IMG/VR virus record: IMGVR_UViG_3300021440_000142
Location: 1-20,826 of that record
From: a virus
Strand: one strand, 5' to 3'
Length of the DNA: 20,826 nucleotides
Every line of letters starts with the position of its first letter. Position 1 is the first letter of the stretch. The notes beneath the pieces are model-generated. The model was not told the origin of the DNA and did not search any database. It worked only from the letters and a program-made list of their open reading frames with translations. This document shows positions 423 through 13,762 of the stretch, piece by piece. Both the position numbers and the translations under genes were made by a program.

Positions 423-986
423 TCAGGCGTTCAGGGTGTAGGTGGCGTTCAGGGTGTCGCCGTTCACCACGGCGCGACTGCCACCCGAGAAGCTTCCACA
501 GGAGAAGAGAATGCCCGTGGCACCGCCCTTGGTGTTGACGGTCGTGAGGAACATGCCCGCAATCGTGCCACCCGCGTTGATGTTGAAAGCCGCCGCCGCG
601 CTGGTTGCTTTCGATCCGCCCGATGCCGCCGCAAAAGCAGGCGCGACCCGGGTAGCGTTCGAATACCCGGTGTTCTCGGTCCACCCCGCATGGGAAGCCA
701 TCGTGTCCGCGATGTTGAAAGTCGGAGCCGACCCGCCATCGACAAGACCAAGGAAAAACGAAGCGGTGTAACCCGACCCGGCCAGATACTTGTCGAGGGC
801 GTCGTTCTTGCCCGCCGTGGTGACGAGGTTTTCGATGTGGTCGGTCCATTTCAGGTTGCCGTCCGCGTCGAAGCACTCAATGGTATAAAACCCTTTCAGG
901 TTGATACCTTCCTCGGACCCGCCACCACGGGTAACGGTCGCTTCAACAACGTCCGTCATTCTGAGATTTTCATTGAAGAGCGCCAT
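423..986 (-). CDS. Phage structural protein, Gly/Ala/Ser-rich (unknown role)
   Basis: This encodes 187 residues with a strong Shine-Dalgarno (GAAAGGAAAAAC before ATG 986). The first third (MALFNENLRMTDVVEATVTR, then GFYTIECFDADGNLKWTDHI) looks like a compact beta domain. The remainder is rich in Gly, Ala, Ser and Thr, as is common in beta-structured virion proteins. No membrane segment or enzyme motif is visible. Similar sequences (charged N-terminus, an 'ECFDxDGNLKW' core, then a low-complexity beta region) occur in many phages and are usually annotated as hypothetical or structural; this is family recollection, not a search. It lies beyond the lysis genes and just before another unassigned phage gene. 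A capsid decoration or tail-surface role is possible but unproven. Confidence 0.75.
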   Translation of the reverse strand: MALFNENLRMTDVVEATVTRGGGSEEGINLKGFYTIECFDADGNLKWTDHIENLVTTAGKNDALDKYLAGSGYTASFFLGLVDGGSAPTFNIADTMASHAGWTENTGYSNATRVAPAFAAASGGSKATSAAAAFNINAGGTIAGMFLTTVNTKGGATGILFSCGSFSGGSRAVVNGDTLNATYTLNA

Positions 987-1013
987 TGTTTTTCCTTTCA
1001 GGCGAGAGTTTCG

Positions 1014-1361
1014 TTATTGCTTGCGGCCCGGCCTTTTGGCGTGAACGGACCACCCGGCGACGGCAAGCGTGGCGATCGCGCCACCGAGTTGGGAAGCCGT
1101 GGCCTGATCGATGTAACCGCGCTGTACCGCGAAGCCGCCCGCCGTGGCGATCAGCGCGCGCACAAGGCCCGCAATTTGTTGACCGACATCGCCGGAATTG
1201 GCGTGGAAGGACCAACCCGCCGTTGCGAGGACGAGAAGGGAGCCAGTGATGAGTTGGGTGGTGGCAGCATCTGCCGTCCCCGAGGAAATCAGCCAGCCCG
1301 AAAGGCAAGCCAAGAGAGCGCGGACTGCGCCAAGGAATTGTTCGGAGGTCATGTCATTCAT
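1014..1361 (-). CDS. Pam3-gp28-type holin with internal tandem duplication
   Basis: This 115-residue protein probably forms the lysis pore in the inner membrane. It has two halves that align with each other. VRALLACLSGWLISSGTADA through AGWSFHAN (residues about 13-55) matches VRALIATAGGFAVQRGYIDQ through AGWSVHAK (about 67-109), with 19 of 43 aligned residues identical by my count. Each half has a hydrophobic helix, a short polar turn, and a second hydrophobic helix ending in AGWS-x-HA. Single-copy proteins with this pattern are annotated as Pam3-gp28 family putative phage holins (family knowledge). The start at ATG 1361 overlaps the upstream Acb2/Tad1-like gene by 8 bases; ATG 1352 is an alternative three codons later. 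Its place next to the M15 endolysin supports a holin role. The C-terminus is basic (KRPGRKQ). Confidence 0.8.
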   Translation of the reverse strand: MNDMTSEQFLGAVRALLACLSGWLISSGTADAATTQLITGSLLVLATAGWSFHANSGDVGQQIAGLVRALIATAGGFAVQRGYIDQATASQLGGAIATLAVAGWSVHAKRPGRKQ

Positions 1362-1590
1362 CCTTCGGTTTGGTTGCAGCCTTGACGGCCCACATGGTGC
1401 CTTCTTCGATGGCGGTTTGGGCCAGCGCCTTTGTCCTGGCCACTTCGGTCACTTGCATGTTTTGGGTGTCGCCAATCGGAATCGAGTCAATCAGGTCGAT
1501 CAAGTCAGCGGCGGCGCGTTTCAGTCGGTCCACGATGTTATCATTGGACGGGTTGAAGTTGATGCCAACGCGATATTCGCCTTTGGTCAT
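1354..1590 (-). CDS. Acb2/Tad1-type hairpin-domain protein (cyclic-nucleotide sponge, anti-CBASS/anti-Thoeris)
   Basis: This 78-residue cytoplasmic protein has the pattern of the Acb2/Tad1 hairpin domain: an N-terminal FNPS segment (RVGINFNPSNDN, residues 7-18), a helix (about 19-37), and a second helix containing LAQTAIEEGTMWAVKAATK (about 56-74). In characterised members of this family, Acb2 sequesters CBASS cyclic oligonucleotides and Tad1 sequesters the Thoeris signal, which prevents host abortive defence. The start at ATG 1590 has an AGGA Shine-Dalgarno 7-9 bases upstream; the frame is open further upstream but that part lies over the endolysin gene and is unlike the family. The gene sits between the endolysin and the holin and overlaps the holin by 8 bases, so it is expressed late with the lysis genes. 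Which nucleotide it binds cannot be read from the sequence. Confidence 0.82.
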   Translation of the reverse strand: MTKGEYRVGINFNPSNDNIVDRLKRAAADLIDLIDSIPIGDTQNMQVTEVARTKALAQTAIEEGTMWAVKAATKPKDE

Positions 1591-1601
1591 GTGATGTCCT
1601 T

Positions 1602-2093
1602 TCAGGAGATTTGGAAGTGAGGTCCGTCGACGAAATCGGGGCCGGGGTGGACTTTCTCGTAACGTGCGCGCGCCGCCCGCATGTCGTCCGGGGTGCTGCC
1701 GTAGCGGTCCATGGTTTCGAACCAATTGCCGCCCCACGTCAGACGCGACCCAAGCCCGAGGCCGTTGGCCGAACGCGACATCGCTGCCGCAATCGGGTAG
1801 TACAGTTCCCACGAATCCGGGTCGAAACCTTTCCCGGGAACGTAGGCGGTAAGGTCAACTGCATGACCATAACCGTCCGACCAGACTTGATGGTTCGACT
1901 TGTGCCTGTAGCCGTCCTTTTGCGTCACGCCCCGCAGAAACAGTTTGTGCTGTTCTTCGGCGGTACGCACGGCTTTCCCGGTCACGCCGAAATCTTGCGT
2001 CGTGATCTTGATTGCCGTTTCGATGATAAGCATCAAATCGGGGTGGACCCCAACCAGATGCAAGCGGCTTTTCGGGCCAAGAGAGTACGTCAT
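1602..2093 (-). CDS. M15-family peptidoglycan endopeptidase (endolysin)
   Basis: This 163-residue enzyme is predicted to cut peptide cross-links in peptidoglycan at the end of infection. It has the zinc peptidase layout of the M15 family (VanY/T5-endolysin type): a KSNHQ motif (H68), GHAVDL (D80) and a C-terminal DGPHFQ (H159) as likely metal ligands. An RTAEEQHKLFLRGVTQKDGY segment (residues 43-62) is typical of phage members. There is no signal peptide or membrane segment, so it needs a holin for export, consistent with the holin gene just downstream. The start at ATG 2093 overlaps the upstream stop as ATGA and has a GAGG Shine-Dalgarno. Its length is normal for a single-domain endolysin; no separate cell-wall binding domain is present. 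Confidence 0.9.
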   Translation of the reverse strand: MTYSLGPKSRLHLVGVHPDLMLIIETAIKITTQDFGVTGKAVRTAEEQHKLFLRGVTQKDGYRHKSNHQVWSDGYGHAVDLTAYVPGKGFDPDSWELYYPIAAAMSRSANGLGLGSRLTWGGNWFETMDRYGSTPDDMRAARARYEKVHPGPDFVDGPHFQIS

Positions 2094-2407
2094 TTTTGCC
2101 TCGCGTTCTGCAGCATCACTTGTTCTTTGATGCCGCGTTGCACTTCAAGAACGTCTTTAAGGTGTTCATTCGTTGTGGCGGTATTGCGCGCGCATTCTGC
2201 CATGCCCTTCTCGACGTTGGCAAAATACTCCAAGTTCTTTTGGAACAACCCAACCATGTTGCCCATAAGACCTTCGAGCGCGGTTTCATTTCTGCCCGCC
2301 GAAAGGAACCCGCCGATTTCCTTCCGTAACAAGATAACCGCCGCTAGGATGGGGGCCACCCAAGGGGCGTAAGCCAGTGCCTTTTCGATCAAGTCTGCGT
2401 CTGCCAT
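2090..2407 (-). CDS. Small membrane-anchored coiled-coil protein, lysis module (holin/spanin candidate)
   Basis: This 105-residue protein has a single N-terminal hydrophobic segment (about residues 12-27, PWVAPILAAVILL) followed by RKE and a long charged helical region (about 45-103) that looks like a coiled coil, with a basic end (NARQK). This topology fits an accessory holin, an antiholin or an inner-membrane spanin. No lipobox or nested outer-membrane spanin frame was recognised, so the exact role is open. The start at ATG 2407 overlaps the upstream four-helix membrane protein by 19 bases, and its end overlaps the endolysin start as ATGA, so the three genes are probably translationally coupled. 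A weak GGGG Shine-Dalgarno precedes it. Confidence 0.72.
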   Translation of the reverse strand: MADADLIEKALAYAPWVAPILAAVILLRKEIGGFLSAGRNETALEGLMGNMVGLFQKNLEYFANVEKGMAECARNTATTNEHLKDVLEVQRGIKEQVMLQNARQK

Positions 2408-2796
2408 TTAGCGCCCCATGCCGTGAAACAGTCCCTTGCGGCATTACGCGCGCCGATAAATAGTAAAGCTGCAACCCAACCGTAGGTGTAACTCGCCGAA
2501 GTGCCCGCCCCGGCTATGACCGCCGAAACGGCCATCGAGAAATGGGCCAACATGCCCGCCAATCGCAAGAATGGGCTAAAACGCCACGCCCCATTGATGC
2601 GGATTCCCAAGGCCCAAATCATTGACGCGGTGACGAGGACTTCGGCGATGCCGATTTGATTGCCACCAATCCACGCAAGGGGGGCAACGCCGCCCGAAAC
2701 AGTGGAGATACCCGTGTAAACGCCAAGGCCCCCGGCGTACAACGCCCCGAGTACCTCGATTTGTCTTTGACGTGGGTACAGATACTTGTGGTTCAT
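2389..2796 (-). CDS. Phage inner-membrane protein with about four transmembrane helices
   Basis: This 135-residue protein starts with a basic segment (MNHKYLYPRQRQ), followed by four hydrophobic stretches at about residues 13-32, 47-66, 78-97 and 102-118, and a polar tail. There is no enzyme motif. A clear AAGGGG Shine-Dalgarno lies 6 bases before ATG 2796. It lies between the cysteine-peptidase-like gene (3 bases upstream) and the coiled-coil membrane protein and endolysin, so a role in lysis control (holin or antiholin) or in a membrane step of infection is plausible. Classical holins usually have one to three helices, so four makes the holin label uncertain. I do not recognise a named family. 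Confidence 0.7.
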   Translation of the reverse strand: MNHKYLYPRQRQIEVLGALYAGGLGVYTGISTVSGGVAPLAWIGGNQIGIAEVLVTASMIWALGIRINGAWRFSPFLRLAGMLAHFSMAVSAVIAGAGTSASYTYGWVAALLFIGARNAARDCFTAWGAKWQTQT

Positions 2797-2799
2797 TTC

Positions 2800-3174
2800 T
2801 TACCCCTTGAGTATCATGCTGGCCGCAAACATCACCGGACCGATCTTGTCTTCTTTGGCAAAATGCGGTGTTTTCGACCATTTCTTGTGCGTGTTGTCGA
2901 TCCACCCTTTGCCCTTGACCCACAACATCATGTGGGTGTGTTCAGGACCGGGCATTGTGTGAGTGCGCCACAGCGCCGCCTTCCCTCTAAGCACCATGCG
3001 GTGCATTTCAGCAACATCATGCCCTGCTTCGATCCACAAAACCGTAAGGGCGTAATCTTCGCAGTCCCCAATGAGCGGGCCAGTTTTCGAAGTAAGAACA
3101 CTCCAACGATCGCGCCCCGGATCACGGCGGTACACGAACCGTTCGTTCAGTTCTTCTAAAGTTAGCCCGCTCAT
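2800..3174 (-). CDS. Transglutaminase-like cysteine peptidase (BTLCP-like)
   Basis: This short protein (124 residues) carries a transglutaminase-fold cysteine protease signature: GDCEDYAL (C38), HTHMMLWV (H79 or H81 as the base) and GWIDN (D93). This matches the Cys-His-Asp order of bacterial transglutaminase-like cysteine proteinases (family knowledge). No signal peptide is visible. Shine-Dalgarno AGGA lies about 9 bases before ATG 3174. It sits after the tail fibre genes and before the lysis membrane proteins. Substrates could be peptidoglycan peptides, a virion protein needing processing, or a host protein; the sequence does not decide. The catalytic triad looks complete. The family assignment is fairly safe, the role is not. 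Confidence 0.75.
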   Translation of the reverse strand: MSGLTLEELNERFVYRRDPGRDRWSVLTSKTGPLIGDCEDYALTVLWIEAGHDVAEMHRMVLRGKAALWRTHTMPGPEHTHMMLWVKGKGWIDNTHKKWSKTPHFAKEDKIGPVMFAASMILKG

Positions 3175-3185
3175 CGGAGAAGTCC

Positions 3186-3413
3186 TTAGTTGGCTTTGGT
3201 TTTCGGCTTTTCAGGTGCTTCCGGCGCGACCTCTTCCGGGGCGACCTCTTCGATCGGCTGCAGCAGCTGCAAACCTTGGACCAGCGGGGTGTGTCCCACC
3301 ACACCAGTTGCCAGCATGGCCGAAAGATGCGCCGCCACCTTGGACGGGTCGCTCATGGCGACAAGGAAATTGTGGATGGCTTGTCCAAGTTCAGCAGGAA
3401 GTTTGTAGTTCAT
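3186..3413 (-). CDS. Small acidic protein with Glu/Pro/Ala-rich tail, unknown function
   Basis: This encodes 75 residues. The first ~45 (MNYKLPAELGQAIHNFLVAM onward) form a probable helical domain. The C-terminal third is a low-complexity acidic tail with the repeated unit EEVAP and a basic end (KPKTKAN). I chose ATG 3413 because an AGGAG Shine-Dalgarno lies 8 bases upstream. The frame is open further, to 3470, but that would overlap the fibre gene by 35 bases and has no comparable ribosome site. It sits between the tail fibre and the cysteine-peptidase-like gene. Small proteins in this position may be tail fibre chaperones or attachment factors, but nothing in the sequence proves this. Confidence 0.7.
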   Translation of the reverse strand: MNYKLPAELGQAIHNFLVAMSDPSKVAAHLSAMLATGVVGHTPLVQGLQLLQPIEEVAPEEVAPEAPEKPKTKAN

Positions 3414-3435
3414 CGATTTGGCTCCTTTTGGTTCG

Positions 3436-4296
3436 TTAAGTGCCGATAAGGCCGTGAGTAATGAGGTCATCGATCAGGGCTTTGACATGTTCCGCTAAGA
3501 CGACCAGCGTGACCGAGCCGGTGGCGAAGGTGGTGCGGGTGGCCGTGCCAGTAGCCGCCGCCCAGCCCGTCTGCCGTCCAACAAGAACGCGGTTGGCCGC
3601 TGCCACGCCGCCGATCCGAAGCTCAGAAGCGGCTCCGACCAGTGACAGGACGTTGTTGGTGTCCAGTCGCATTGCTTCTGTGACCGCGATCCCGGTGCCA
3701 ATATCAAAACGAAAACCAGCTTTCATGTTGCTGGCACCAGCGACTTCGGTAATGACCCGAATGGCCGCAGATGGCCGCATGGTGGTTCCGTCTGCGCCGT
3801 AGAAGTTGAACGCCGCAAGAATGTCGTTGACGTTGAGCAGCGTGACATCACCTGCGGCTGTTCCGCGCGATTTCCCCATGAGAAGGTACGGCCCGACGTT
3901 GCTTGCATCGTTGTTTTTCATAACGATGCCAGCGCCCGAGAAACCGGGGGTGCCTTCGATCTGGATTGGGAAGTTGCCCAGCCCCATCGCGTTCAGGCCA
4001 GCGCCCACATTGAACCGCAAAGCCTTGTTGAAGAACTCCGCGACCTGGACTCCGTTCGACGAGACGTGAACCGTGCCGGGTGTGACGTTGGAAAGCCCGG
4101 TGTCAGTATCTCCGGAAAAGGTAATCCCGGGAGAAGCGATGGAACCGCTTGTAAATGTCCCGCTGTTGGTCATTCCCGAGTATGTGTTCAGCGCCGGAAC
4201 GAGCGTATTGCTGAGCCAACTCAGATAAGTGTCCATGTCCTGCCGAAAAGTGGCAGGCACAAGGCGCGACGGGGTGGTGGGGGGTGTCAAGGGCAT
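3436..4296 (-). CDS. Tail fibre / receptor-binding-type structural protein
   Basis: This 286-residue protein has an N-terminal helical attachment region (RQDMDTYLSWLSNTLVPALN, about residues 18-37). A beta-repeat region follows, with the phage fibre motif ITFSGDTDTGLSNVTPGTVH (about 58-77), GKSRGTAAGD...DILAAFNFYGADG, and repeated Ala/Gly/Val/Leu segments. The C-terminus ends in a helix (LAEHVKALIDDLITHGLIGT). These are hallmarks of trimeric phage tail fibres (family knowledge). No intramolecular chaperone peptidase was recognised. The start at ATG 4296 overlaps the upstream stop as TGATG, indicating translational coupling with the carbohydrate-binding-like tail protein. It would act outside the cell in host recognition; the receptor is unknown. 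Confidence 0.78.
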   Translation of the reverse strand: MPLTPPTTPSRLVPATFRQDMDTYLSWLSNTLVPALNTYSGMTNSGTFTSGSIASPGITFSGDTDTGLSNVTPGTVHVSSNGVQVAEFFNKALRFNVGAGLNAMGLGNFPIQIEGTPGFSGAGIVMKNNDASNVGPYLLMGKSRGTAAGDVTLLNVNDILAAFNFYGADGTTMRPSAAIRVITEVAGASNMKAGFRFDIGTGIAVTEAMRLDTNNVLSLVGAASELRIGGVAAANRVLVGRQTGWAAATGTATRTTFATGSVTLVVLAEHVKALIDDLITHGLIGT

Positions 4297-5291
4297 CAGG
4301 CCAGTCCTTCCACTTCAAGCGAGAAATAAGCCCGCTCGGGGGTTTCGAAGATCATGTCAAAACTCTTGATAACGCCGTAGATGATTATGCCGTCATTGGC
4401 GTCGTCAGAAGTTGGATAAAACACGCAAGGCGTGGCGCGCAAGTCAGCAATCAGCTGCGTAACCCTGGACCTGCGCAACGATGGGACTTCAATCTCGAAA
4501 GTGGCGTTGAAGCTGTAAGACCTCGACACAATCGAAAGATTCCCGTAAGCATCGACGGTTTTCACCGAATAGTCCACGAGCGACATTTTCGCCCCGGAGT
4601 GGCACTTGCCCAGATCATACGAAGGGCCGACGAGTATCTCGCCAATACGCACTGTGCCCAAACTCTGGAAGTTAACCGCTTCGAGCGAAAGCGTAGGCGC
4701 GTCCCCGGTGATGCCTGTTCCCCATCCATCAATGCCGTCAAACACGTAGTTATTCCGGTACGGCAAATCGCCAAAGCAATACTCCCATGCATCAAACACA
4801 AGAGAATCGTCAAGGCAATAGATGTAACGCTCATACTCCGGAAGAGCAAAGTTTCCCACCGCTGTGTAAGTGGCATGAATCCACGAAACATCAGCATTCA
4901 AAATAGCCACTGAGTCGAATGCTCCCATTCCGACCAGCCGGAAACGCGAGAAACCCGCCGACTGAGAAGGAGCAGAGTCATAACCCGCAAACCGATTGGT
5001 GTTGACAAGCGCGTCAAAAGGTTTCCACGCATTCGAGGCACTGATCCGAACCCACCACGTGTTGGACGTAAGCGGGGGAGTTGGCGGGGCGTGGTTCGTG
5101 TGGGCGACAATGCACTGATAAATCGAGTACGAAGACTCGACAATAACTTTGTCGCCAATCGCATAAGCAGCAGCGCTTGACCAAACAGGCGACGTTGCAT
5201 AGTCGCCGCTGTTCGTGTACCCGTAGTTGCTGTCTTGAAGCGCCGTCAGATAATTCGATGGCTGAACGGTTGTTGGAACAAGTACTCTCAT
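4296..5291 (-). CDS. Tail tip protein with carbohydrate-binding-module-like N-terminal domain
   Basis: This encodes 331 residues. Residues ~35-85 (WSSAAAYAIGDKVIV, IYQCIVAHTNHAPPTPP, WWVRIS) show the small aromatic-rich CBM5/12-like pattern 'AYxxGDxVxxxxxxYxC' found in phage adsorption proteins. The middle is aromatic- and Gly-rich. The last ~90 residues (YSFNATFEIEVPSLRRSRVT to YFSLEVEGLA) look like a beta domain similar to minor or distal tail proteins (inference). It directly follows the tape measure gene with an ATGA overlap, the usual position of tail-tip genes. It may combine a structural tip role with saccharide binding. I see no protease or lysozyme motif. Confidence 0.72.
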   Translation of the reverse strand: MRVLVPTTVQPSNYLTALQDSNYGYTNSGDYATSPVWSSAAAYAIGDKVIVESSYSIYQCIVAHTNHAPPTPPLTSNTWWVRISASNAWKPFDALVNTNRFAGYDSAPSQSAGFSRFRLVGMGAFDSVAILNADVSWIHATYTAVGNFALPEYERYIYCLDDSLVFDAWEYCFGDLPYRNNYVFDGIDGWGTGITGDAPTLSLEAVNFQSLGTVRIGEILVGPSYDLGKCHSGAKMSLVDYSVKTVDAYGNLSIVSRSYSFNATFEIEVPSLRRSRVTQLIADLRATPCVFYPTSDDANDGIIIYGVIKSFDMIFETPERAYFSLEVEGLA

Positions 5292-8200
5292 GCCCGCACC
5301 GCTGGCATTCCATTAGCCTGCCAGTCCTCAAAAATCTTCCGCATCTGCTTGATGTCGATCATGGTTTTCCCGTTTATTTGGGCCTGTTCGTCACGGAGAG
5401 AAGCGATTTCACTACGAAGGCCGCGAACTTCCGAAGCAACCGGGTTGTCTTGTCCTACAACGGCAGAATTGGGGCGCGGGCGGTGGTCGCCGTTGTTCGT
5501 ACGAGTCTTGCCTTGAAGGGCGTAGATCAATTCCATTATTTGATTTTCAAGGCTGTTCGTGGAAGCGCCACCTTGGGCCACGATAGCGTCGTTCACCGAA
5601 TCAAGACGCGCCAGCATTTGTTCTAGCGTTTTAACGTTAGTCCCATCATAAGCCTTGATGGCCTCAAGGGCGTCGATTTGCTTCTTCAAAAGAGCCGCTT
5701 GTGCTTCCTGTTGAGCAGCGACACTGTTCCCGTAGTCACTTACGCCCTGCATCCCGGCGAGGATTTTTGCTTGCTCGACGGCGGCTTCTGCAGCGGTGTG
5801 CGAAGTCTGAGATACGCTTTCGATCAAATTCGCTGCCAACTCGGGCAAACGGCTGGCCGCGTTTACGTTTCCATTGCGGGCGCTGCGCACGGCTTGGTTA
5901 AATTGACCACGATTGAACGAAAGAGCGGCGTACGGGCCAGTTAGTTCGGACACCTTACCGAGCATTCCGGCGATGAAGTCTTGAATAGACTTGGTTGCGC
6001 TGCGCCAATCGCGGGCCTTGTTCACCGCATCATTGTAGGCTTTCTTGGTGGGTCCCAAGATGTCCGAAATCTGCTTGTTTACCGACTTTCTAAGCTTAGC
6101 GACCAGCTTGTCGAAAGCGTTCCCAAGATTGTCTACGGCCCCGGTGGTATCGTCAACTTTGGGGAGAATAAAGTCCATAACGCTGGCCAAGCTGGTGAGA
6201 ACCGCAAACGCCTTGCGGCCAGCTGCCGTGTTCAGGTTCAGAGAGTCCACCATGTGTCTGTATTGTTCGCGAGTGTTCGGCATCGTGAGGCCGATCTGAC
6301 GCAACGCGCGGGCGGCATCACGCGAAGCAATTCGCATGCGTTCGGATTCGCTGTAAAAAGTCTCATAATAAGTCGAAGTGGCGCTATTCATGGCGTCCAA
6401 ACCGCCAAAAGCGTCAACCAACTTAGAGGCCGCATTTGCCCCGCGCAACCCGGTCATTGTGAATTCGAGGCCGAGAGTGTGCGCAATGGACTTCACCGCC
6501 GACATAGCGGTATTGAGGCGCATCAGAGCCTCGGTGGCCGTCTCGCCCTCGTGGATATACCGTTTAAGGTGCGGAATCATCAAGGCAAAGCTGTCGCCAA
6601 GTTTCCCGATCGCGTCCTGCACGGCCTTGGTGGCCTCGGCATCGGTCATGCCCTTTGTGGAAACTTTGAGTTCGTACGCAAAGTCCCGGAAGGCACGTTG
6701 TCCGATGCCGAGGGTTCTAGCGGCCACTATGATGGCCTTTTCCATACTGCCAACAGCGGCCCCGATCGGGTCGGAAATCTCAGAACCCACGCTGCCGTGG
6801 GTTGTCTTGGTCCAGCTATTCCAGAGGAATTTGCGCTTCACCCGTTCGAACGATTCTACCGTGGTGTTCATGCCATCGGCAGTAACGACAAGACCCTCGT
6901 CCAGTTTCTTCGTTCGAATGCGCAACAACGAAAAAGCTGCAGCGAGAGCGGCAATCGGGAGGGCCAAAGCGCCAGCCGCCGTGGCGAGGCCCGCAAGACC
7001 ACCGCCGCTTACGCCCGCAAGCGCAGACGTGATGGCCGAACCAGCGCCGCCAAGACCGCTGGTAAACAAACCCGTGGCCACATCGGTGAGTCCCGTAGTG
7101 AACCCTGAAACAGCGCCACCAGCGCCCGACAGCATTCCGCTCATCCAACCCGACCCGCTGCCGCTTGTAGCACCGCTGGCGGCACTTGCAAGAGCCGTAG
7201 ACCCGGCCAAGGGCGAAAGGCCCATGCCGATTTTGATACGGTTCATTGCCGCAAATACGATCATTTGTTTGATCGTGTTAATGAAAACAGTCCAAATACC
7301 TTTCAGTCCACCTTTGAACCCGTCCACCATATTACTGACTACAGTTTCGATGCCAGAGGTCACATAACCGCTCATGGTGTCCGCATAACTCTTTGCGGCT
7401 TCCTCGGCGGCTTTGATGGCCTTCTCGGCGTCAGTCATGGCCTCTGTTGCTGCGCCACCAGCGCCCGATGCGGCGTCTTCCGCAACATACCACCCCGCTG
7501 CTATTTGGCGGGTGGCACCGTACAATTGATAAGCCGCTTTCGTGGCTTCAACTGTGGCATGCAGGGCCTCTTCGGATTGCTGACGGGTACTTCCGTAGAG
7601 GTTGTAACCACCAGCAATTTGTTCTTTAGACGCCGGACGGTTCTTCGCCACCATGGCGGTGAAGGCGGTAGCGGCGTTCCACAAGCGAGTCCCGAGGGTG
7701 GTGGCGTCTTGAATGGCCCCCTCAAGCCACCCTTTAAGAGGACGGCCCGCCACCAATTCGCTCATGAACCATTTGGCATCGCCAGTAGCTTTTTGGAGTT
7801 CTTTCATCGAAAGAGCAGCGTCAGTAACACTGGACCCGAATTCGGTAGTGGATTCGGTGCTCTTTTGCAGCAAATCGTCGATCTTTACGAGGGCCTCGTA
7901 TTGCTCCTTCGGAGTGGACGCGTTTTTCAGTTCATCCCAAGCTTGAATGAGGTTCACCACTTCGCCTTTGGTCAGGCCAAGCTGTTCCGTCAAGTCTTGC
8001 ATCGCGAAAGCACCAGCCTTGGACTGTTGCTTCGCTGTCTCCATCAGCGTCCCGTACTTCTCTTGAAGAGTGTCCAAGACCACCAAAAGATCACGTTGGG
8101 CAGCACCCTCTTGTTGCTGTTTCTGGTGTTCAATGAGGCGGACGAGTTTCTCGTCAATGATGCCATACTTGTCGGCAATGACCTCAAGGCTTTGCGAGGC

Positions 8201-9211
8201 GGTAGCGGACAAGTCTGAAATGCTGGACTTCAACGCGGACGTGGCGTCCCGCAAGTCGTCCATGTACGTATTGGTGCTCATGAGGGAAGGCAACAACACG
8301 CTGGCAATCGCGCCACTGAAACCGATAATAGCGCCGACGATCGCACCCTCGGCCCCGAACAAAGAAGCGATTTGGGACCCTTGTTGGGCGAAGATGATCA
8401 TGGCGTTTTGACCAGCTTGAAGCTGGATACCAACGTCTTGAATCTGGTACGCAAATTGAGTGATGTTGGCCCGGGCAACACGCGAAAACCCGCCCATACT
8501 CCGAGAGAACGAAGTATGGAACAGGTTGTTAGCCTCCTCGGCCACTCTGAAATCGCGGGCGGCAATTTCCATCAAACGGTTGGCCTCTTCTTGAGGAACC
8601 AAACCGTTTCTTACGGATTCATTGAGAGAACGAAGGATAGTGTTGTAGCGCTGTGCGGCGGCAATCGCGGGGTCCAGTTCAGCAGACAACCGATTGAATT
8701 GCCGAACACGCTGTTCCTCGGCCTTCATGGCATCGCGAGTTGCTTTCTCTTGCGCCTTTTGTGAAGCCTTCAATTCAGCTGCAACTTTGCGCTCTTCTTC
8801 AAGCTTCGCTTGAGCAGCCAGACGAGCAGCTTTCTGCGTAGCCATCAGAGCCGCTTTTTCTTCTGCGGCTTTGGCTTGTGCGGCGAGACGAGCGTTCTTC
8901 TGCGTTTCCATCAGAGCCGCTTTTTCGATGGCGGCGGCTTTACGGGCAGCTTCCTGTTGCTGTTTGAGTGATGCAGCTTGGGCCTTGCTCTCGTCGGCCA
9001 CTTTTGTCTTCAATGACGCAGCGTAAGCTTGGGCGGCTTTCGTCATGTTAGCATTGAAGTTGGTGGACACGGCCTCAAGGGCGTCCATCGCTTTTTTCAA
9101 GCGTTTTTCGGTGTCACCGCCTGCAGCCCCAAGCTTGCGCAAATCCTCAATAGCTTTGATAAGCTTCTTGGTATCCGCGCTTAGGACTATGTTGGCAAAA
9201 TCCTCAGCCAC
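5288..9211 (-). CDS. Tail tape measure protein
   Basis: At 1307 residues this is the largest protein, lying after the tail chaperones as expected. It sets tail length and is ejected during DNA entry. Residues ~45-175 are a charged Ala/Lys/Glu coiled coil with a 22-residue tandem repeat (~97-140). Then come YQIQDVGIQLQAGQNAMIIF and AQQGSQIASLFG (~255-286), a signature of phage tape measure N-terminal regions, with a hydrophobic stretch to ~310. A second hydrophobic segment is at ~739-763 (GLAGLATAAGALALPIAALA). No peptidoglycan hydrolase motif was found. I chose GTG 9211, which starts 5 bases after the upstream stop with AGAGG 9 bases before it. The frame is open to ATG 9259, but that lies inside the upstream gene. 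At about 1.5 angstrom per residue the tail would be near 200 nm. Confidence 0.93.
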   Translation of the reverse strand: MAEDFANIVLSADTKKLIKAIEDLRKLGAAGGDTEKRLKKAMDALEAVSTNFNANMTKAAQAYAASLKTKVADESKAQAASLKQQQEAARKAAAIEKAALMETQKNARLAAQAKAAEEKAALMATQKAARLAAQAKLEEERKVAAELKASQKAQEKATRDAMKAEEQRVRQFNRLSAELDPAIAAAQRYNTILRSLNESVRNGLVPQEEANRLMEIAARDFRVAEEANNLFHTSFSRSMGGFSRVARANITQFAYQIQDVGIQLQAGQNAMIIFAQQGSQIASLFGAEGAIVGAIIGFSGAIASVLLPSLMSTNTYMDDLRDATSALKSSISDLSATASQSLEVIADKYGIIDEKLVRLIEHQKQQQEGAAQRDLLVVLDTLQEKYGTLMETAKQQSKAGAFAMQDLTEQLGLTKGEVVNLIQAWDELKNASTPKEQYEALVKIDDLLQKSTESTTEFGSSVTDAALSMKELQKATGDAKWFMSELVAGRPLKGWLEGAIQDATTLGTRLWNAATAFTAMVAKNRPASKEQIAGGYNLYGSTRQQSEEALHATVEATKAAYQLYGATRQIAAGWYVAEDAASGAGGAATEAMTDAEKAIKAAEEAAKSYADTMSGYVTSGIETVVSNMVDGFKGGLKGIWTVFINTIKQMIVFAAMNRIKIGMGLSPLAGSTALASAASGATSGSGSGWMSGMLSGAGGAVSGFTTGLTDVATGLFTSGLGGAGSAITSALAGVSGGGLAGLATAAGALALPIAALAAAFSLLRIRTKKLDEGLVVTADGMNTTVESFERVKRKFLWNSWTKTTHGSVGSEISDPIGAAVGSMEKAIIVAARTLGIGQRAFRDFAYELKVSTKGMTDAEATKAVQDAIGKLGDSFALMIPHLKRYIHEGETATEALMRLNTAMSAVKSIAHTLGLEFTMTGLRGANAASKLVDAFGGLDAMNSATSTYYETFYSESERMRIASRDAARALRQIGLTMPNTREQYRHMVDSLNLNTAAGRKAFAVLTSLASVMDFILPKVDDTTGAVDNLGNAFDKLVAKLRKSVNKQISDILGPTKKAYNDAVNKARDWRSATKSIQDFIAGMLGKVSELTGPYAALSFNRGQFNQAVRSARNGNVNAASRLPELAANLIESVSQTSHTAAEAAVEQAKILAGMQGVSDYGNSVAAQQEAQAALLKKQIDALEAIKAYDGTNVKTLEQMLARLDSVNDAIVAQGGASTNSLENQIMELIYALQGKTRTNNGDHRPRPNSAVVGQDNPVASEVRGLRSEIASLRDEQAQINGKTMIDIKQMRKIFEDWQANGMPAVRA
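8792..8923 (-). repeat. 66-bp in-frame tandem repeat in the tape measure coiled coil
   Basis: Two adjacent 22-codon units encode KAALMETQKNARLAAQAK and KAALMATQKAARLAAQAK plus four acidic or Ala residues each. At DNA level an identical 18-base block occurs at 8843-8860 and 8909-8926, exactly 66 bases apart. This is a recent in-frame duplication within a region already made of heptad-like helices. Confidence 0.8.
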
Positions 9212-9215
9212 TGGC

Positions 9216-9656
9216 TTAGACCTCTTTGGACAGCCTTGCGAAAATGCCGGGGACGGCATGATACGCAGTTGTTGCGAAAAGGCGACCCTTCACGTTGTAG
9301 AACCGCCCCAATACGTCTTGGCCCGCAAAACCAAACTCGATCCTGCGGGCATAAGGGACAGTCCACTCGAAAGTAATCGTGTCCCCGATTTTCATGCGAG
9401 AAATACGCCAGAGATAGCTTTTAACGCCGGGTTTGGACGGAACAGCGCCATTTATGGTGGTTACGAGAGACGACCACAAATCCTCTGACAAGAGAGGGAC
9501 TTTACCAACCTCGAACGTTCCGCCCGTAAGAATGACGCTCGGTTGAGGCTCTTGGGCCATGTCCATCATTTCGGTGAGAGTACGACGCATAAGCTTCGTC
9601 AGTCTCTTTTCCGTGCCCTCGGCGAATTTATTGATTTGCGCTTGTAGGCTCAACAT
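9216..9656 (-). CDS. HK97 gp10-like tail completion / minor structural protein
   Basis: This encodes 146 residues with an amphipathic N-terminal helix (LQAQINKFAEGTEKRLTKLM), a central beta region and the segment WTVPYARRIEFGF (about residues 99-111). The last resembles the PYAxxxEFG signature of HK97 gp10-like proteins, which act at the head-tail junction or tail end (family knowledge). There is no membrane segment. The start at ATG 9656 overlaps the frameshift-encoded gpT by 29 bases, and its stop is 5 bases before the tape measure GTG. Members of this family usually lie before the tail terminator and tube genes. Here the gene lies between the chaperones and the tape measure, so the role could differ, for example at the tail tip. 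Confidence 0.65.
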   Translation of the reverse strand: MLSLQAQINKFAEGTEKRLTKLMRRTLTEMMDMAQEPQPSVILTGGTFEVGKVPLLSEDLWSSLVTTINGAVPSKPGVKSYLWRISRMKIGDTITFEWTVPYARRIEFGFAGQDVLGRFYNVKGRLFATTAYHAVPGIFARLSKEV

Positions 9657-10014
9657 TGTCTCGATCCACGGGCGGAATGCACAGAGGGTTCACGCCCTCT
9701 ATCTTAGCATTCAGGTAGTCGGCGCTCATTTCTAGAAGAGTCTCTACTTCCCACTTATTCAGCAGCGGGTCGAAAGTCTCTTTGTAGTAATAAACGTCCT
9801 TCCAGCTAAGGGGCCGCTCCCCTTCGAACACATGGGAAGTGTACCCCAAAGCTTTTAGCGCTTCTACCAGATAAACCTCGCGCCCCAACTTGGGAAGCTG
9901 TAGGTCCTCTTTTCTTTCGAGGGCCAGTTCCAGCCTGCTGGTTTTGCCCCATCCCTCTGGTATGGAATTTAAGTAGCCAAGCTGCGCTGAAAACAAACGC
10001 AGCTTGGCTTTTAT
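9628..10014 (-). CDS. gpT-like part of the gpGT tail assembly chaperone, reached by -1 frameshift
   Basis: This frame has no ribosome site of its own. It continues the gpG frame after a -1 slip at GGGAAAA (10014-10020). The first codons after the slip read I-K-A-K-L-R-L-F-S-A-Q-L-G and continue to the stop at 9628, adding 128 residues to the 165 of gpG for a 293-residue gpGT fusion. In lambda, gpG and gpGT bind the tape measure and recruit tail tube protein, with only a small fraction made as fusion (established). The extension is soluble and mixed alpha, with an aromatic/acidic core (SWKDVYYYKETFDPLLNKWE). A TTG at 9996 could serve as an independent start, but it lies in the hairpin loop and lacks a Shine-Dalgarno. 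The position before the tape measure supports the assignment. Confidence 0.82.
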   Translation of the reverse strand: MKAKLRLFSAQLGYLNSIPEGWGKTSRLELALERKEDLQLPKLGREVYLVEALKALGYTSHVFEGERPLSWKDVYYYKETFDPLLNKWEVETLLEMSADYLNAKIEGVNPLCIPPVDRDNVEPTSANQ

Positions 10015-10020
10015 TTTCCC
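9975..10020 (-). other. Programmed -1 ribosomal frameshift signal (GGGAAAA plus 12-bp hairpin)
   Basis: Read on the minus strand, the last gpG codons are CTG GGA AAA TAA, which gives the heptamer G-GGA-AAA in the X-XXY-YYZ phase needed for -1 slippage; lambda uses GGGAAAG. Four bases later a perfect 12-bp inverted repeat (9998-10009 with 9975-9986) encloses an 11-base loop. The -1 frame continues open for 128 codons. No U-tract follows the hairpin, so it is not an intrinsic terminator. Confidence 0.88.
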
Positions 10021-10508
10021 AGCTTAAGGATGGATTTTTGGGACGCATCGAGGATTTGACTGGCGAACGGCCAGTTGAGCATCCCCATTTCCTCGGAATC
10101 TTCCAGTTTCCCGAAGATGGGAAACGTGAAGTCGAGAAGACGGCGGATAAGCGCTTCGTCTGAACCGACTTCGACGAGTTCACCCTTTTCAGTGAGGTAG
10201 ACATTCTCGAAGCGGATGATGAAAGGAAGCGCGGCATCGATGAGGGTGTTGTGCGTGTCTTCAAGGACCGCAAGACCGGGAATGTCCCCTTGCTTGTCGT
10301 CGTCCGTAGACACAACGCTGGAGCGCAGTCTGTCGCGCACCAACGATTGGAACGAATGCGAATGGGGGAGCCGCAACAGAACGCTGCAGGGCTTGCCTTC
10401 GCTTTCGAGGGGTTCGCGGGTGTTCGGGTCGCAGAGTTGGACAAGCTGCCCTTTTTCTTCTGAATCCCGGTTGTCGAACTTGAAGAAGTCGACTTTGCTG
10501 GTGGTCAT
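10011..10508 (-). CDS. Tail assembly chaperone, gpG-like
   Basis: This 165-residue cytoplasmic protein is soluble and acidic. It starts MTTSKVDFFKFDNRDSEEKG and ends in a helical segment (ASQILDASQKSILKLGK). It takes the place of lambda gpG: after the tail tube gene, before the tape measure, and ending in a slippery heptamer that fuses it to the gpT-like frame. The chaperone keeps the tape measure protein soluble and helps recruit tube subunits (established for lambda). The sequence itself carries no catalytic motif; position and frameshift give the assignment. ATG 10508 has a GAGG/AGGA Shine-Dalgarno. Its 109-base leader holds two overlapping inverted repeats that may control its translation. 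Confidence 0.82.
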   Translation of the reverse strand: MTTSKVDFFKFDNRDSEEKGQLVQLCDPNTREPLESEGKPCSVLLRLPHSHSFQSLVRDRLRSSVVSTDDDKQGDIPGLAVLEDTHNTLIDAALPFIIRFENVYLTEKGELVEVGSDEALIRRLLDFTFPIFGKLEDSEEMGMLNWPFASQILDASQKSILKLGK

Positions 10509-10527
10509 TTCTTTTCCTCACGGCTTC

Positions 10528-10573
10528 TTGGCTTCGAATGGCCGGGGTAGTGAAGCCAACCCCACCCCGGCCA
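10528..10573 (-). other. Overlapping inverted repeats (pseudoknot or alternative hairpins) between tube and chaperone genes
   Basis: In the 109-base gap after the tail tube stop, a perfect 10-bp inverted repeat (10564-10573 with 10539-10548, TGGCCGGGGT) encloses a 15-base loop. Part of that loop, GGCTTC-containing 10552-10559, pairs perfectly over 8 bp with 10528-10535, downstream of the first stem. The order S1-S2-S1'-S2' is that of an H-type pseudoknot; with a crossing loop of only 3 bases the two stems may instead exclude each other. The second stem ends close to the gpG ribosome site. No U-tract follows. Confidence 0.55.
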
Positions 10574-10617
10574 CCGTCGAACAGCCCCTTCGAGGGATAG
10601 GGGCCGCTCAAACAGGA

Positions 10618-11052
10618 TTACACGCGAACCGTCGCCGAGTTGACGCGGAACACGCCAGTCAGGCCCTTGAAGTTCGAGTTGTTCCGCTCTTGGTCCTGGA
10701 TGTTGGCCACGATGCCGTAGAAATAGGCCAACTTGCCATCCGGGTCGGTGATCTTGACCGAAACGGTGACGTTGTTGTTCGAGTTGTTGACCAGCAGCGT
10801 TTGGCCCGCATCCGAATCATAGCGAACGACGAAGGGGATTTCGCCACCATCGGCGGCACCGTTGACGTGTTCGACGCGGCCAGCGAGAAGCGGGATCGCG
10901 ATGTTGTCCGAAGTGTCACCGACCGCGCCCCACGACACGATTTTGCCAACGGTGGTGTAGGACAACGCACCAAAGCCCGAAGAGTCGATGGTGGCGGGGG
11001 TAGCGACGGAAACGGCGATTACCGCCCCGATGTAGGAAGTAGGCGAGGCCAT
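10618..11052 (-). CDS. Major tail protein (tail tube)
   Basis: This 144-residue protein is beta-rich (ITDPDGKLAYFYGIVANIQD and FRVNSATVRV near the C-terminus), without membrane segments or catalytic motifs. Its size and position, directly before the gpG/gpGT chaperones and after the neck and terminator genes, are those of a siphovirus tail tube subunit, which polymerises around the tape measure protein. The strong AAGGAG Shine-Dalgarno before ATG 11052 and the stable hairpin after its stop suggest high expression, as a tube protein requires. No Ig-like extra domain is visible. The assignment rests on position and general character rather than on a diagnostic motif. Confidence 0.78.
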   Translation of the reverse strand: MASPTSYIGAVIAVSVATPATIDSSGFGALSYTTVGKIVSWGAVGDTSDNIAIPLLAGRVEHVNGAADGGEIPFVVRYDSDAGQTLLVNNSNNNVTVSVKITDPDGKLAYFYGIVANIQDQERNNSNFKGLTGVFRVNSATVRV

Positions 11053-11089
11053 TGCAGGCTCCTTTCAGCGTAAGTTGATGGGCGGGGGG

Positions 11090-11419
11090 TTACTTCTTCT
11101 TCGCCGGGGTTTCAGCCACAGCGGCCATGGCCGCAGCATTCTCGGCGGCGGCGACCGCGAGTTGACGATCAGCCTCGGCTTGTGCCAAGACTTCGGGGTT
11201 CGGTTCGATGGACACCACGACCGAAGAATTGGTTTCCGGGTCAACGTCAGCGTCGAAAGTCACGACGATCTGACCCGACTTGGCCAACCCACTGATGGTG
11301 TTGGCGTTGTCCACGCCACGAAGCACGTCGTTGGTGGTTTCCAACGAACCAAAGGCCGGAATGACGTGCCCCGTTGCGAGGGTGATCGGGCGGTTGCCCG
11401 GATTGCTGACTTTTGCCAT
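11090..11419 (-). CDS. Small phage protein: beta domain plus Ala-rich, Lys-ended tail
   Basis: This encodes 109 residues. The first ~75 (NPGNRPITLATGHVIPAFGS through GQIVVTFDADV) look like a small beta domain. Residues ~78-109 are an Ala/Glu helix ending PAKKK. The general layout (N-x-G-x-x-I-x-L at the start, a short beta domain, then an Ala-rich basic-ended tail) resembles the 86-residue protein encoded at 13447-13707, which suggests a shared fold or remote paralogy (inference). The start at ATG 11419 has a TAAGGAG Shine-Dalgarno. It lies between the paralogous structural pair and the tail tube gene. A minor virion or assembly role is likely from position; no family is recognised. Confidence 0.7.
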   Translation of the reverse strand: MAKVSNPGNRPITLATGHVIPAFGSLETTNDVLRGVDNANTISGLAKSGQIVVTFDADVDPETNSSVVVSIEPNPEVLAQAEADRQLAVAAAENAAAMAAVAETPAKKK

Positions 11420-11429
11420 GAAGTTCTCC

Positions 11430-11798
11430 TTAGGCGACCGGGTTGATCAGCGCCGCCTTGAGGCCAGCGCTGGAGTTGATAACGATGGCCCCTTGCAAGA
11501 AGCCTTCCATCGTGTCGAGCGGGATCAGCTTGATCTGCCCAGCCGCGATGGAGAACGCCGCGTAGCCAGCCGAAATGCTCTTTGCGCCCGCGCCGTCCGT
11601 ATTCCAGGTGGTGCCAGCGCCGACAATGACGGGCGAAATAGCACCACCTGTGGGATTGAGGAGCACGAGAATCTGGCCCGTGCCCTTGACGTAGTTGAAA
11701 GTGTCACCCCCGGCCAAAGTGGTCAGGGTAAGCTGGGCGAAAGCACCAGCCGAAGCACCGCGCCAAGTGGGCTTGATGGTCGGAGCAATGGTTGCCAT
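11430..11798 (-). CDS. Phage structural protein, second copy of a tandem paralogous pair
   Basis: This 122-residue protein is rich in Gly, Ala, Thr and Ile and probably beta-structured, with no membrane segment. The core DTFNYVKGTGQILVLLNPTG matches the neighbouring upstream protein's DTFTYLPGTGQMLLMYNPTG; after it both have G-x-x-x-P-x-I-x-G and an equivalent C-terminal half. The two genes are adjacent (10-base gap) and of equal length, so they arose by tandem duplication. Position between the tail terminator and tail tube suggests a virion protein such as a capsid or tail decoration. The sequence does not show which. A GGGGG-containing ribosome site precedes ATG 11798. Confidence 0.72.
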   Translation of the reverse strand: MATIAPTIKPTWRGASAGAFAQLTLTTLAGGDTFNYVKGTGQILVLLNPTGGAISPVIVGAGTTWNTDGAGAKSISAGYAAFSIAAGQIKLIPLDTMEGFLQGAIVINSSAGLKAALINPVA

Positions 11799-11808
11799 GT
11801 CAGCCCCC

Positions 11809-12168
11809 TCAGTTGTTCAACAGCACGGCAATGACGCCCGTGCCGTTGGTGATGGTAACAATACCCGAAGCATCGGGCAGGTAATTGCGGGAGTCGTCAA
11901 GGTTGACGAGCACCATTTGCAAGGTCGGGATCGCGACGTCAAGACCCGAGTTGAAAGCCGTGGTCGTGCCACCAAGCCCCGGGATTGCCGCTGCAGCAGC
12001 CGCCGAACCCTTGATGTTCGGGGTAACGGTGCCACCTGTGGGGTTGTACATGAGGAGCATCTGCCCGGTGCCGGGGAGATAAGTGAAAGTGTCAGAAGCA
12101 GTCAGCGTGTTGGGCGTACCCGTCCGCTGGCCAGCCCCTTGCATGGTAGTCGAGGTCAATGCGGCCAT
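11809..12168 (-). CDS. Phage structural protein, first copy of a tandem paralogous pair
   Basis: This 119-residue protein is Thr-, Ala- and Gly-rich. It shares the D-T-F-x-Y-x-x-GTGQ-x-L-x-x-x-NPTGG core (about residues 26-47) with the gene just downstream, and both end in a hydrophobic beta-like segment (here TNGTGVIAVLLNN). It differs in an insert of six alanines (GSAAAAAA) after the core. The start at ATG 12168 has a GGAG Shine-Dalgarno 7 bases upstream and begins 4 bases after the tail terminator stop. It is a probable virion component by position; no specific family is recognised. Divergence from its paralog suggests the two have separate jobs rather than being a fresh copy. Confidence 0.72.
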   Translation of the reverse strand: MAALTSTTMQGAGQRTGTPNTLTASDTFTYLPGTGQMLLMYNPTGGTVTPNIKGSAAAAAAIPGLGGTTTAFNSGLDVAIPTLQMVLVNLDDSRNYLPDASGIVTITNGTGVIAVLLNN

Positions 12169-12172
12169 CGTT

Positions 12173-12577
12173 TTACTCCGTTCTGAACGTCATGATAACT
12201 GGCGTTTTCATGTGCGTCGTTGTTTCCACAAGCCGTTTTGGGCTTGGGTGGCTTGTAACCATCGTTATCGTGGCAGGGGTGCCATAATAAATTCTGCGCC
12301 CCTTCGGGAATACCGACCGGATGAAGTCGATTATTTCCCCGAGTTTTTCCGTCGAAGTGTCTTTTTCCACCACAACGTCAATGTTCACGAACCCATTGAT
12401 GTGTTCGTCTGTGGAACCCAAGGTTTCGTCAAAGGATTCCGAAAACGAAAACGAAAACTCGACGTATGGGAACGTGTACGCGTCGGGTGTTGAGTTGGGC
12501 CATTCGACTTGAAATGACGGGTCAGCGTCATACATCGCTTTCTTCATGCCCAACATTACGTCTTGGTACGAGGGCAT
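12173..12577 (-). CDS. Tail terminator / tail completion protein
   Basis: This 134-residue protein starts with an amphipathic helix (MPSYQDVMLGMKKAMYDADP), followed by PYVEFSFSFSESF, a central helix (STEKLGEIIDFIRSVFPKG) and a C-terminal beta hairpin region ending HMKTPVIMTFRTE. This alpha/beta pattern is typical of siphovirus tail terminators (lambda gpU-like), which form a ring that stops tube growth and docks the tail to the head (family knowledge). It lies between the head closure gene and the downstream tail genes, the expected order. The start at ATG 12577 is 1 base after the upstream stop, so translation is probably coupled. No enzyme motif. Confidence 0.75.
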   Translation of the reverse strand: MPSYQDVMLGMKKAMYDADPSFQVEWPNSTPDAYTFPYVEFSFSFSESFDETLGSTDEHINGFVNIDVVVEKDTSTEKLGEIIDFIRSVFPKGRRIYYGTPATITMVTSHPSPKRLVETTTHMKTPVIMTFRTE

Positions 12578-12578
12578 G

Positions 12579-12935
12579 TTATCGCCTCAACATAAGCTTT
12601 TTGGCGACGACAACCCCGCCCGGGCTTATCGATTCGATGGAATCAACGGTGTACTTAGTCCCGTTAACTTCCACAGAGTCTTTCTCCACAGGGTCGATCC
12701 CGTTTTCAACAGGGACCAAAAGCACTTCGTCGTATCTGGTCGGCATGCCCTGCGCGTAGCCAAACACCTTGTTCCTCAAAGAAACAGCGCGCATTGACAG
12801 CACTTCCGGTTCCTCGGAGACGCGGGCATATTCCGGACCAACTTTCGTCGGCCTTTTAGTCAAAGTGACTGAAAAACCAACATCATCGATGGCTTCGAGA
12901 ACATCGGACGAAACACGGTCCCAATCCTCTGGCAT
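12579..12935 (-). CDS. Head closure / head-tail stopper protein
   Basis: This encodes 118 residues from ATG 12935, which overlaps the upstream stop as TGATG; GTG 12938, one codon earlier, is the alternative start. The protein begins with a helix (MPEDWDRVSSDVLEAIDDVG) and continues with short beta strands, including VEKDSVEVNGTKYTVDSIES and a final VVVAKKLMLRR. Small beta-barrel proteins of this size between the connector and the tail terminator are usually head closure proteins that plug the portal after packaging (family knowledge). Position is the main evidence. It is soluble, with no catalytic residues apparent. Confidence 0.7.
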   Translation of the reverse strand: MPEDWDRVSSDVLEAIDDVGFSVTLTKRPTKVGPEYARVSEEPEVLSMRAVSLRNKVFGYAQGMPTRYDEVLLVPVENGIDPVEKDSVEVNGTKYTVDSIESISPGGVVVAKKLMLRR

Positions 12936-13450
12936 CACACCACCCCAAAGGCTGGCGCAAACTTGAACGAAACCAAAGTTGAGAGCGCGTTCTGAACGTT
13001 GATCAGCACGGGCTTCATTTCTTCAAGGGTGTGGGCGTTTGCGGTAGTCTTCCACCGCATACTGTCCATTTCCACCAAGACTTTTTCATTGTTTCCATTC
13101 ATGAACACAGGGGACAACGAAGAAGGCTTGGATACCTCTTGAACAGCTGCATAGACTTGAGCCAAGAGGATTTCTTCGGGGATCGTGGCCGAATCAAGAA
13201 GATATGCCTCAAGATCGTATGCATCTTTACGCGGCCAGTCACGCGATTGAGAGCGACCGTTTGTCTTCGTGCCGGGCCAACGGGGGCGAAAATTCGCATC
13301 CAGCCAAATCGCAGAACGGCGCAAAGCAGCCTCAAGAACCGAATCCGCCCCCGACGCAGACAAACCCAAATTTGTGACCCGAGTTTTGAAACTCGCGAGG
13401 TCCAAATAGGAATCTGCGTCAACCGCGCCGGGGGTGGTGACAAGGGTCAT
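12935..13450 (-). CDS. Head-tail connector / adaptor, DnaT-like family
   Basis: This 171-residue protein contains VDADSYLDLASFKTRVTNLG (about residues 10-29), then RRSAIWLDANFRPRWPGTKT and a helix IPEEILLAQVYAAVQEVSK. The pattern 'ADSYxxxxxaxxy..G......LRRA..yld' is that of the phage DnaT-like head-tail connector proteins (family knowledge; the DnaT name comes from a distant similarity and does not imply DNA replication here). It would bind beneath the portal. ATG 13450 overlaps the upstream stop as ATGA. Order after the capsid gene supports this role. Length is normal for the family. Confidence 0.78.
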   Translation of the reverse strand: MTLVTTPGAVDADSYLDLASFKTRVTNLGLSASGADSVLEAALRRSAIWLDANFRPRWPGTKTNGRSQSRDWPRKDAYDLEAYLLDSATIPEEILLAQVYAAVQEVSKPSSLSPVFMNGNNEKVLVEMDSMRWKTTANAHTLEEMKPVLINVQNALSTLVSFKFAPAFGVV

Positions 13451-13707
13451 TTGCTTGCAGCAGCCTTGGTCTTGGTCGCTTCGGCAGCGGCAGCGGCAGC
13501 TTCGGCAGCAGCAGCTTCGGCAGCGGCAGCTTCCTCGGCGGAGACATCGACCTCAACCAGCATGCCCTTCTCGAAATAGGCAGCGACGACTTCGCTCTTC
13601 GCGAACTCGGCAAAAGCCTCGGCGGAGACGTCAAGGGTTTGCCCCTCGGCGACAACGCATTCAAACGACAGACCGATCGGTCCTTTCGTCGTGTTGCGAA
13701 TTTTCAT
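13447..13707 (-). CDS. Small phage protein with Ala/Glu-rich helical tail
   Basis: This encodes 86 residues. The first ~55 (MKIRNTTKGPIGLSFECVVA through YFEKGMLVEVDV) form a probable small beta domain. The remainder is an Ala/Glu repeat (units of AAAEA) ending in a Lys/Ala tail, likely a helix or coiled coil. An AGAGG Shine-Dalgarno precedes ATG 13707. It lies between the major capsid and connector genes, where many phages encode a small accessory protein of unknown function. The tail is encoded by 15-base GC-rich repeats, so its length could vary by in-frame slippage. I do not recognise a named family. Confidence 0.72.
   Translation of the reverse strand: MKIRNTTKGPIGLSFECVVAEGQTLDVSAEAFAEFAKSEVVAAYFEKGMLVEVDVSAEEAAAAEAAAAEAAAAAAEATKTKAAASK
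13486..13530 (-). repeat. 15-bp low-complexity repeats in the Ala/Glu tail
   Basis: Read on the plus strand, units close to TTCGGCAGCGGCAGC recur at 13501-13515 and 13516-13530, with a longer copy just before (about 13480-13500). They encode AAAEA-type units, and all lengths are multiples of three, so gain or loss of units keeps the frame. Confidence 0.65.
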
Positions 13708-13735
13708 GGTGTTCCCTCTCTCGAATGGAATGGAT

Positions 13736-13762
13736 GCGCTGGCAAGACTGTCCTGCCAGCGC
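13736..13762 (-). other. Hairpin just after the major capsid gene
   Basis: A perfect 9-bp inverted repeat (13736-13744 GCGCTGGCA with 13754-13762) with a 9-base loop lies 12 bases after the capsid stop codon. No U-tract follows on the minus strand, so it is unlikely to be a full intrinsic terminator. It more likely protects the capsid mRNA end or lowers read-through (inference). Confidence 0.55.

Follow-up and report, generated by a model that had tools for sequence, protein, structure and literature searches.

The window analysed here is the whole of a 20,826-nucleotide stretch of viral DNA (IMG/VR virus record IMGVR_UViG_3300021440_000142, positions 1 to 20,826). It carries a small gene of the Acb2/Tad1 hairpin family, referred to below as acb2, within a lysis cassette whose order on the minus strand is endolysin, 11 nt, acb2, holin. 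The cassette lies at the end of an operon of about 19 kb, all on one strand. The features discussed are the following:

423..19599, minus strand: continuous late operon (from ORFs and Pfam domains), presumably a single transcript
1014..1361, minus strand: holin with two tandem Phage_holin_10 units (PF23987, E 1.9e-23, in two stretches)
1354..1590, minus strand: acb2-like gene, 78 aa (PF24729, AlphaFold2 model, similarity to the nearest relative)
1591..1604, minus strand: ribosome-binding site of acb2, AAAGGA-CATCAC-ATG, read from the sequence and extending into the endolysin stop codon
1602..2093, minus strand: endolysin, M15-type peptidase-like (phrog_465 endolysin, E 4.7e-35)
2090..2407, minus strand: ORF upstream of the endolysin, for a small protein that may be a membrane protein or lysis accessory
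19676..20185, minus strand: NusG-domain protein heading the operon (PF02357, 39.4 bits against a cut-off of 22.2)

The acb2 reading frame begins with an ATG at 1590 and stops at 1354, with its ribosome site (AAAGGA) at a spacing of 6 nt from the ATG. The plus strand of this interval is also open, but its translation is unrelated. The product matches Pfam family PF24729 (Acb2_Tad1_hairpin; 49.4 bits, cut-off 27, E 5e-13 over all of Pfam), and the hairpin domain occupies residues 15-73. The gene is real and the match is beyond chance. The first-pass annotation, made from the sequence alone, had proposed a 78-codon gene of the Acb2/Tad1 hairpin family at this place; the gene is confirmed, on the minus strand, and the HMM search bears out the family. 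Its reading of the protein was less exact. FNPS is not the start of the protein but occupies residues 12-15, and the helix motif is present but with a different spacing, T-x-x-E-x-x-x-MWAVKAATK (TAIEEGTMWAVKAATK), one residue longer than described. PADLOC and NCBIfam gave no match for the protein.

Relatives were collected from IMG/VR (80 loci kept of the 544 found) and from bacterial genomes (28 loci). All 68 aligned members (the window protein and 67 relatives) match PF24729, and the closest relative is 73% identical to the window protein. Across this alignment the N-terminal segment MTKGEYRVGINFNPS and the C-terminal helix are nearly invariant, while the length of the hairpin loop differs among members. 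Pairwise dN/dS against eight relatives is 0.10-0.18, a rough estimate because synonymous sites are close to saturation. The FNPS subfamily, as we call this group, is already covered by Pfam and by names in UniProt. The same pattern (FNPS-V-K ... R ... T ... MWAVKA) is found at 40-45% identity in proteins annotated as hypothetical in Pasteurella phage Pmp11, Enterobacter phage EcP1 and the Flavobacterium elemo phages. The Pmp11 copy lies between lysis genes and terS, and the EcP1 and elemo copies lie among small hypothetical genes. FNPS Acb2-like proteins also occur in Bacteroidota chromosomes (L097, L098, L099, L101 and L102); in two of these (L097 and L102) the gene adjoins others that, by eye, resemble phage head-morphogenesis genes.

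The position between endolysin and holin given by the first-pass annotation also stands, since the gene upstream matches a PHROG endolysin family and that downstream a Pfam holin family. The endolysin has a weak match to PF13539 (E 0.011, below the cut-off) and its phage relatives are annotated as endolysin or LD-endopeptidase. No confident family was obtained for the 2090..2407 protein among the Pfam and PHROG-type profiles searched. The holin belongs to the Pam3 gp28 family. Its first ATG (1361) falls within a ribosome site, AAGGA. Codon 4 (ATG at 1352-1350, in the context TGA-C-ATG) has AAGGA 8 nt upstream and would give a protein beginning MTSEQFLGAV, to be compared with MSAEEIGGVV in L089 and MTADQVGGIV in L070. 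Codon 4 is probably the true start; because it agrees with the ribosome site and with the homologous holin starts alike, acb2 and the holin probably abut with one base between them. The 8-base overlap noted earlier is obtained only with the first ATG and disappears with the likelier start. The holin contains the Phage_holin_10 unit twice, as an internal tandem duplication with halves that are 42% identical, and the holins of L087-L089 are a single 56-aa unit. A search of viral contigs for relatives with the holin as query gave no match.

The AlphaFold2 model of the 78-aa protein (single chain, pLDDT 92.4) has helices at residues 3-8, 18-35 and 45-72, that is, one short N-terminal helix followed by two long antiparallel helices. 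This is the layout published for Acb2 (PMC12043709, PMC10419184). The Pfam name of the hairpin domain family includes Tad1 as well, but Tad1 has an N-terminal beta-sheet (PMC12043709); the four-stranded sheet of Tad1 type is absent from the model, in which no strand is predicted. As modelled, the architecture is Acb2-like, not Tad1-like, and on this ground CBASS-type cyclic di- and trinucleotides are better supported as ligands than gcADPR. The top match among solved structures, T4 Vs.4 with cGAMP (TM 0.64, Foldseek E 1.8), is only suggestive, its E value not being significant, as often happens with short helical hairpins. The top match among viral models is named Acb2/Tad1 hairpin protein (TM 0.90, E 7e-7). 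Using hhalign against an Acb2 alignment of 11 rows, two of them characterised (T4 Vs.4, Pseudomonas phage Acb2 of PDB 8h2j and Rhodobacteraceae Acb2-like proteins), we obtained probabilities of 97.8-98.2% with E 8e-13 to 4e-14. A single-sequence search of solved structures returned chance matches only. The corresponding profile search placed 9ptq ('Acb2 homolog 43') first (E 0.15) and 7uq2 (Vs.4) third (E 0.38), neither being significant, and no clearly matching solved member of the FNPS subfamily was recovered by sequence.

Ligand-site positions were compared in a joint alignment of 13 rows, in which K24 and M66 never vary and R52 and T59 hardly do. T4 Vs.4 (Acb2; PDB 7uq2), with about 24% identity, has the three-helix layout and the hairpin in common with the window protein, and the positions of its Lys23 (K24), Thr68 (T59) and Met75 are kept. 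However, its Tyr8 is replaced by Phe12 and its stacking residue Phe82 by threonine (T73). In Pseudomonas phage Acb2 (PDB 8h2j, 8h2x; about 19% identity) the helix order is alike and Lys26, Arg67 and Thr74 correspond to K24, R52 and T59, whereas Tyr11 is again Phe (F12) and the N-terminal segment differs (TKGEYRVGINFNPS). We take Arg67 and Lys26 of the Pseudomonas phage protein to be ligand-binding residues. The Lys and Thr positions are kept, and Tyr is replaced by Phe throughout the FNPS subfamily. In the T4 protein, Y8A abolishes ligand binding, T68M lowers affinity and Phe82 stacks on the ligand (PMC12657218, PMC12657230). Judged from the aligned residues, the ligand site appears to be largely conserved, and the Tyr-to-Phe and Phe82-to-Thr differences may alter specificity.

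The operon begins with a terS-like gene (19599) and continues with terL, portal, capsid and tail genes, followed by endolysin, acb2, holin and one further gene. The terL, portal, DUF2213 and capsid domains are above their Pfam cut-offs and TMP_2 is below its own. The NusG-domain gene lies directly upstream of terS, which suggests antiterminated late transcription, and its product may be the antiterminator of the late operon. In Camelimonas (L093), too, acb2 and the terminase genes are preceded by a NusG-domain protein. The 11 nt separating endolysin and acb2 are too few to accommodate a separate promoter there, and a scan for promoters and terminators gave no clear excess over shuffled sequence (for sigma-70-like matches in the region, 6 against 3.7 expected, sd 1.8). 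Structural and lysis genes on one strand, the NusG-domain gene and the short gap together make late expression the best interpretation, and acb2 is probably made late, with the capsid, tail and lysis proteins. The late production proposed in the first-pass annotation is in this way well supported by gene order. The window terL has its closest counterparts in Rhizobium phage RHph_X3_2 and Paracoccus phage Pkon1, and this points to an alphaproteobacterial host. Beyond the NusG-domain gene, the contig end (20240-20826) is GC-rich, of low complexity and repetitive, with a positive GC skew and without a clear gene; it may represent either regulatory DNA or an artefact of assembly.

In L087-L089, whose endolysins are the nearest phage relatives of the window endolysin (67% identity), the cassette consists of endolysin then holin with a 12 nt gap, without acb2. 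For this reason acb2 was probably inserted in the window. Loss from the L087-L089 lineage is the alternative, but insertion is the simplest explanation. The T4 Acb2 gene, unlike that of the window, sits among vs/regB genes. Other relatives do lie beside lysis genes. The Paracoccus and Defluviimonas prophage copies (L092, L094, L095 and L096; 59-66% identity) are directly downstream of an endolysin gene, but neither these endolysins nor the lysis genes downstream are related to the window's own. The distance is 3-28 nt in Paracoccus limosus, Paracoccus sp. DMF-8, P. lutimaris and Defluviimonas. The order is GH24, acb2, Rz-like spanin in P. limosus (L092); Amidase_3, acb2 in DMF-8; a weak Amidase_2 match with a peptidoglycan-binding domain, then acb2, in P. 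lutimaris; and GH24, acb2, GTA-type holin (a weak match) in Defluviimonas (L095). Further neighbours include a weak GH19 match with a peptidoglycan-binding domain (L015), a CHAP protein (L054), a holin upstream together with an endolysin downstream (L144) and a nearby Phage_holin_10-like gene (L070). L078, which has a small membrane-like protein upstream, was rejected as lysis-linked: no lysis family matched.

In a survey of neighbours made by inspection and motifs, which is rough and in which classes such as scaffold-like overlap, a recognised lysis neighbour was found at 4 of the 80 IMG/VR loci kept of 544 and a neighbour of another kind at 36, and 40 loci were left unclassified. Neighbours were co-chaperonin-like (14), SSB-like (10), reductase or thioredoxin (4), dCTP deaminase-like (3) and terminase (3) genes. 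Since most classified relatives sit elsewhere, lysis linkage is not a rule of the family. A place beside lysis genes is a recurrent option, taken with unrelated lysins and most notably by prophages of Paracoccus and other Rhodobacterales, and this recurrence is the modest new point raised by the window gene. In viral contigs such as L005, L045 and L057 a different block recurs, composed of a co-chaperonin-like gene, acb2 and a scaffold-like gene. The literature searched yielded no functional study of the FNPS subfamily and nothing specific on sponges or anti-defence genes in lysis cassettes, both being weak evidence as most subscription papers are outside its coverage. This candidate sponge subfamily is widespread in alphaproteobacterial phages, uncharacterised, and recurs beside unrelated lysins.

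We think it likely, with a function deduced from sequence, that the window gene is a late-made sponge of Acb2 type, inserted as a moron between the endolysin and holin of an alphaproteobacterial phage. By analogy with characterised relatives, the small three-helix protein would probably assemble as a hexamer and would trap host cyclic di- and trinucleotide alarm signals (of CBASS and related systems), and with the signal trapped the killer effectors would stay off. Gained as a moron in the late operon, it would be made together with the capsid, tail and lysis proteins and would keep the signal low up to the point at which the phage itself opens the cell. Such timing would suit defences that capsid proteins trigger or to which they are linked. 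Late production makes sense in the light of three observations: Thoeris detects the capsid protein (PMC11312562), a capsid mutation is present in acb2-deleted phages that evade CBASS (PMC10419184), and Acb2 is, according to a review, active on induction and not during lysogeny (PMC12043709). Of 397 genomes sampled from the P. limosus family, 38 have SMODS cyclases, so a CBASS-type target exists in that family. No SMODS cyclase was found in the host genomes of L092 and L095, though only about 10% of family genomes have one. If late expression is true, the question becomes when during infection the signal must be trapped, and whether a sponge coexpressed with the holin protects the phage's own control of lysis.

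How much the position matters is a separate question. It is nearly an even bet that the gene encodes an Acb2-like sponge whose location within the lysis cassette is without functional significance, morons landing wherever an operon tolerates them. This is compatible with the sponge function and denies only that position matters. It agrees with the variety of sites occupied by the family (SSB-like, co-chaperonin/scaffold, ribonucleotide reductase/thioredoxin, dCTP deaminase, terminase and head genes). On the tree, which was built on 82 columns, has poor support and does not resolve the placement of the window acb2, the lysis label has to change about 7 times (at least 2 of the changes being forced), which argues that the site was not inherited once on the best tree. 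However, lysis linkage is more clustered than in label shuffles (mean 9.6 changes, with 4 of 500 shuffles as low as 7), although near relatives can cause clustering, and the three related Paracoccus copies keep their place though the lysin differs. The opposite idea, that lysis-linked sponges are a functional class in temperate alphaproteobacterial phages, kept so that the timing of lysis is decided by the phage rather than by its host, is a speculative one to which we give little weight. The sponge would then be most abundant at the stage where defences triggered by capsid or directed at the membrane would otherwise break the cell with assembly unfinished, and late production would also limit exposure to sponge-punishing guard systems such as Panoptes.

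Other readings change the ligand, the timing or the function itself. A sponge for the gcADPR of Thoeris, or for some other cyclic nucleotide of the host, in place of CBASS signals, is unlikely: the Pfam hairpin family is common with Tad1, the residues that stack on dinucleotides differ and a clearly matching solved subfamily member is lacking, but the beta-sheet that is part of the Tad1 architecture (PMC12043709) is missing and the lysine, threonine and arginine positions of Acb2 are conserved. Slightly less credible still is protection early in infection, from an internal promoter or from prophage leakage before late-operon transcription begins. Those relatives that lie in regions for replication or nucleotide metabolism are presumably expressed early; in the window, however, this would have to be reconciled with the 11-nt gap, with sigma-70-like matches not clearly above shuffles and with the activity of Acb2 on induction described above (PMC12043709). 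That the protein merely resembles Acb2 and is a lysis regulator (antiholin-like, or a chaperone of holin or endolysin) is very improbable. The tight spacing to both lysis genes and the possible translational coupling to the holin would favour it, but the protein has no hydrophobic segment (best 19-residue hydropathy 0.59) and no holin family match, the gene is absent from the L087-L089 cassette, and its relatives accompany unrelated lysins and holins or, often, no lysis neighbour. A direct role in lysis is unlikely for these reasons, and nothing was found in support of the effect on lysis timing raised by the first-pass annotation. An indirect role may exist, in which the sponge keeps membrane-damaging effectors from opening the cell early.

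Two further groups of Acb2-like genes were observed among Rhodobacteraceae. A single Rhodobacteraceae MAG contains seven near-identical Acb2-like copies on different contigs (L109-L115); in the two inspected (L109 and L110) a small lipoprotein-like ORF lies downstream. Classical GYR-type Acb2 relatives (L131, L146 and Rhodobacter phage RcWaterboi) are placed among the head genes in Rhodobacteraceae prophages, so that this one host group is served by two Acb2 subfamilies.
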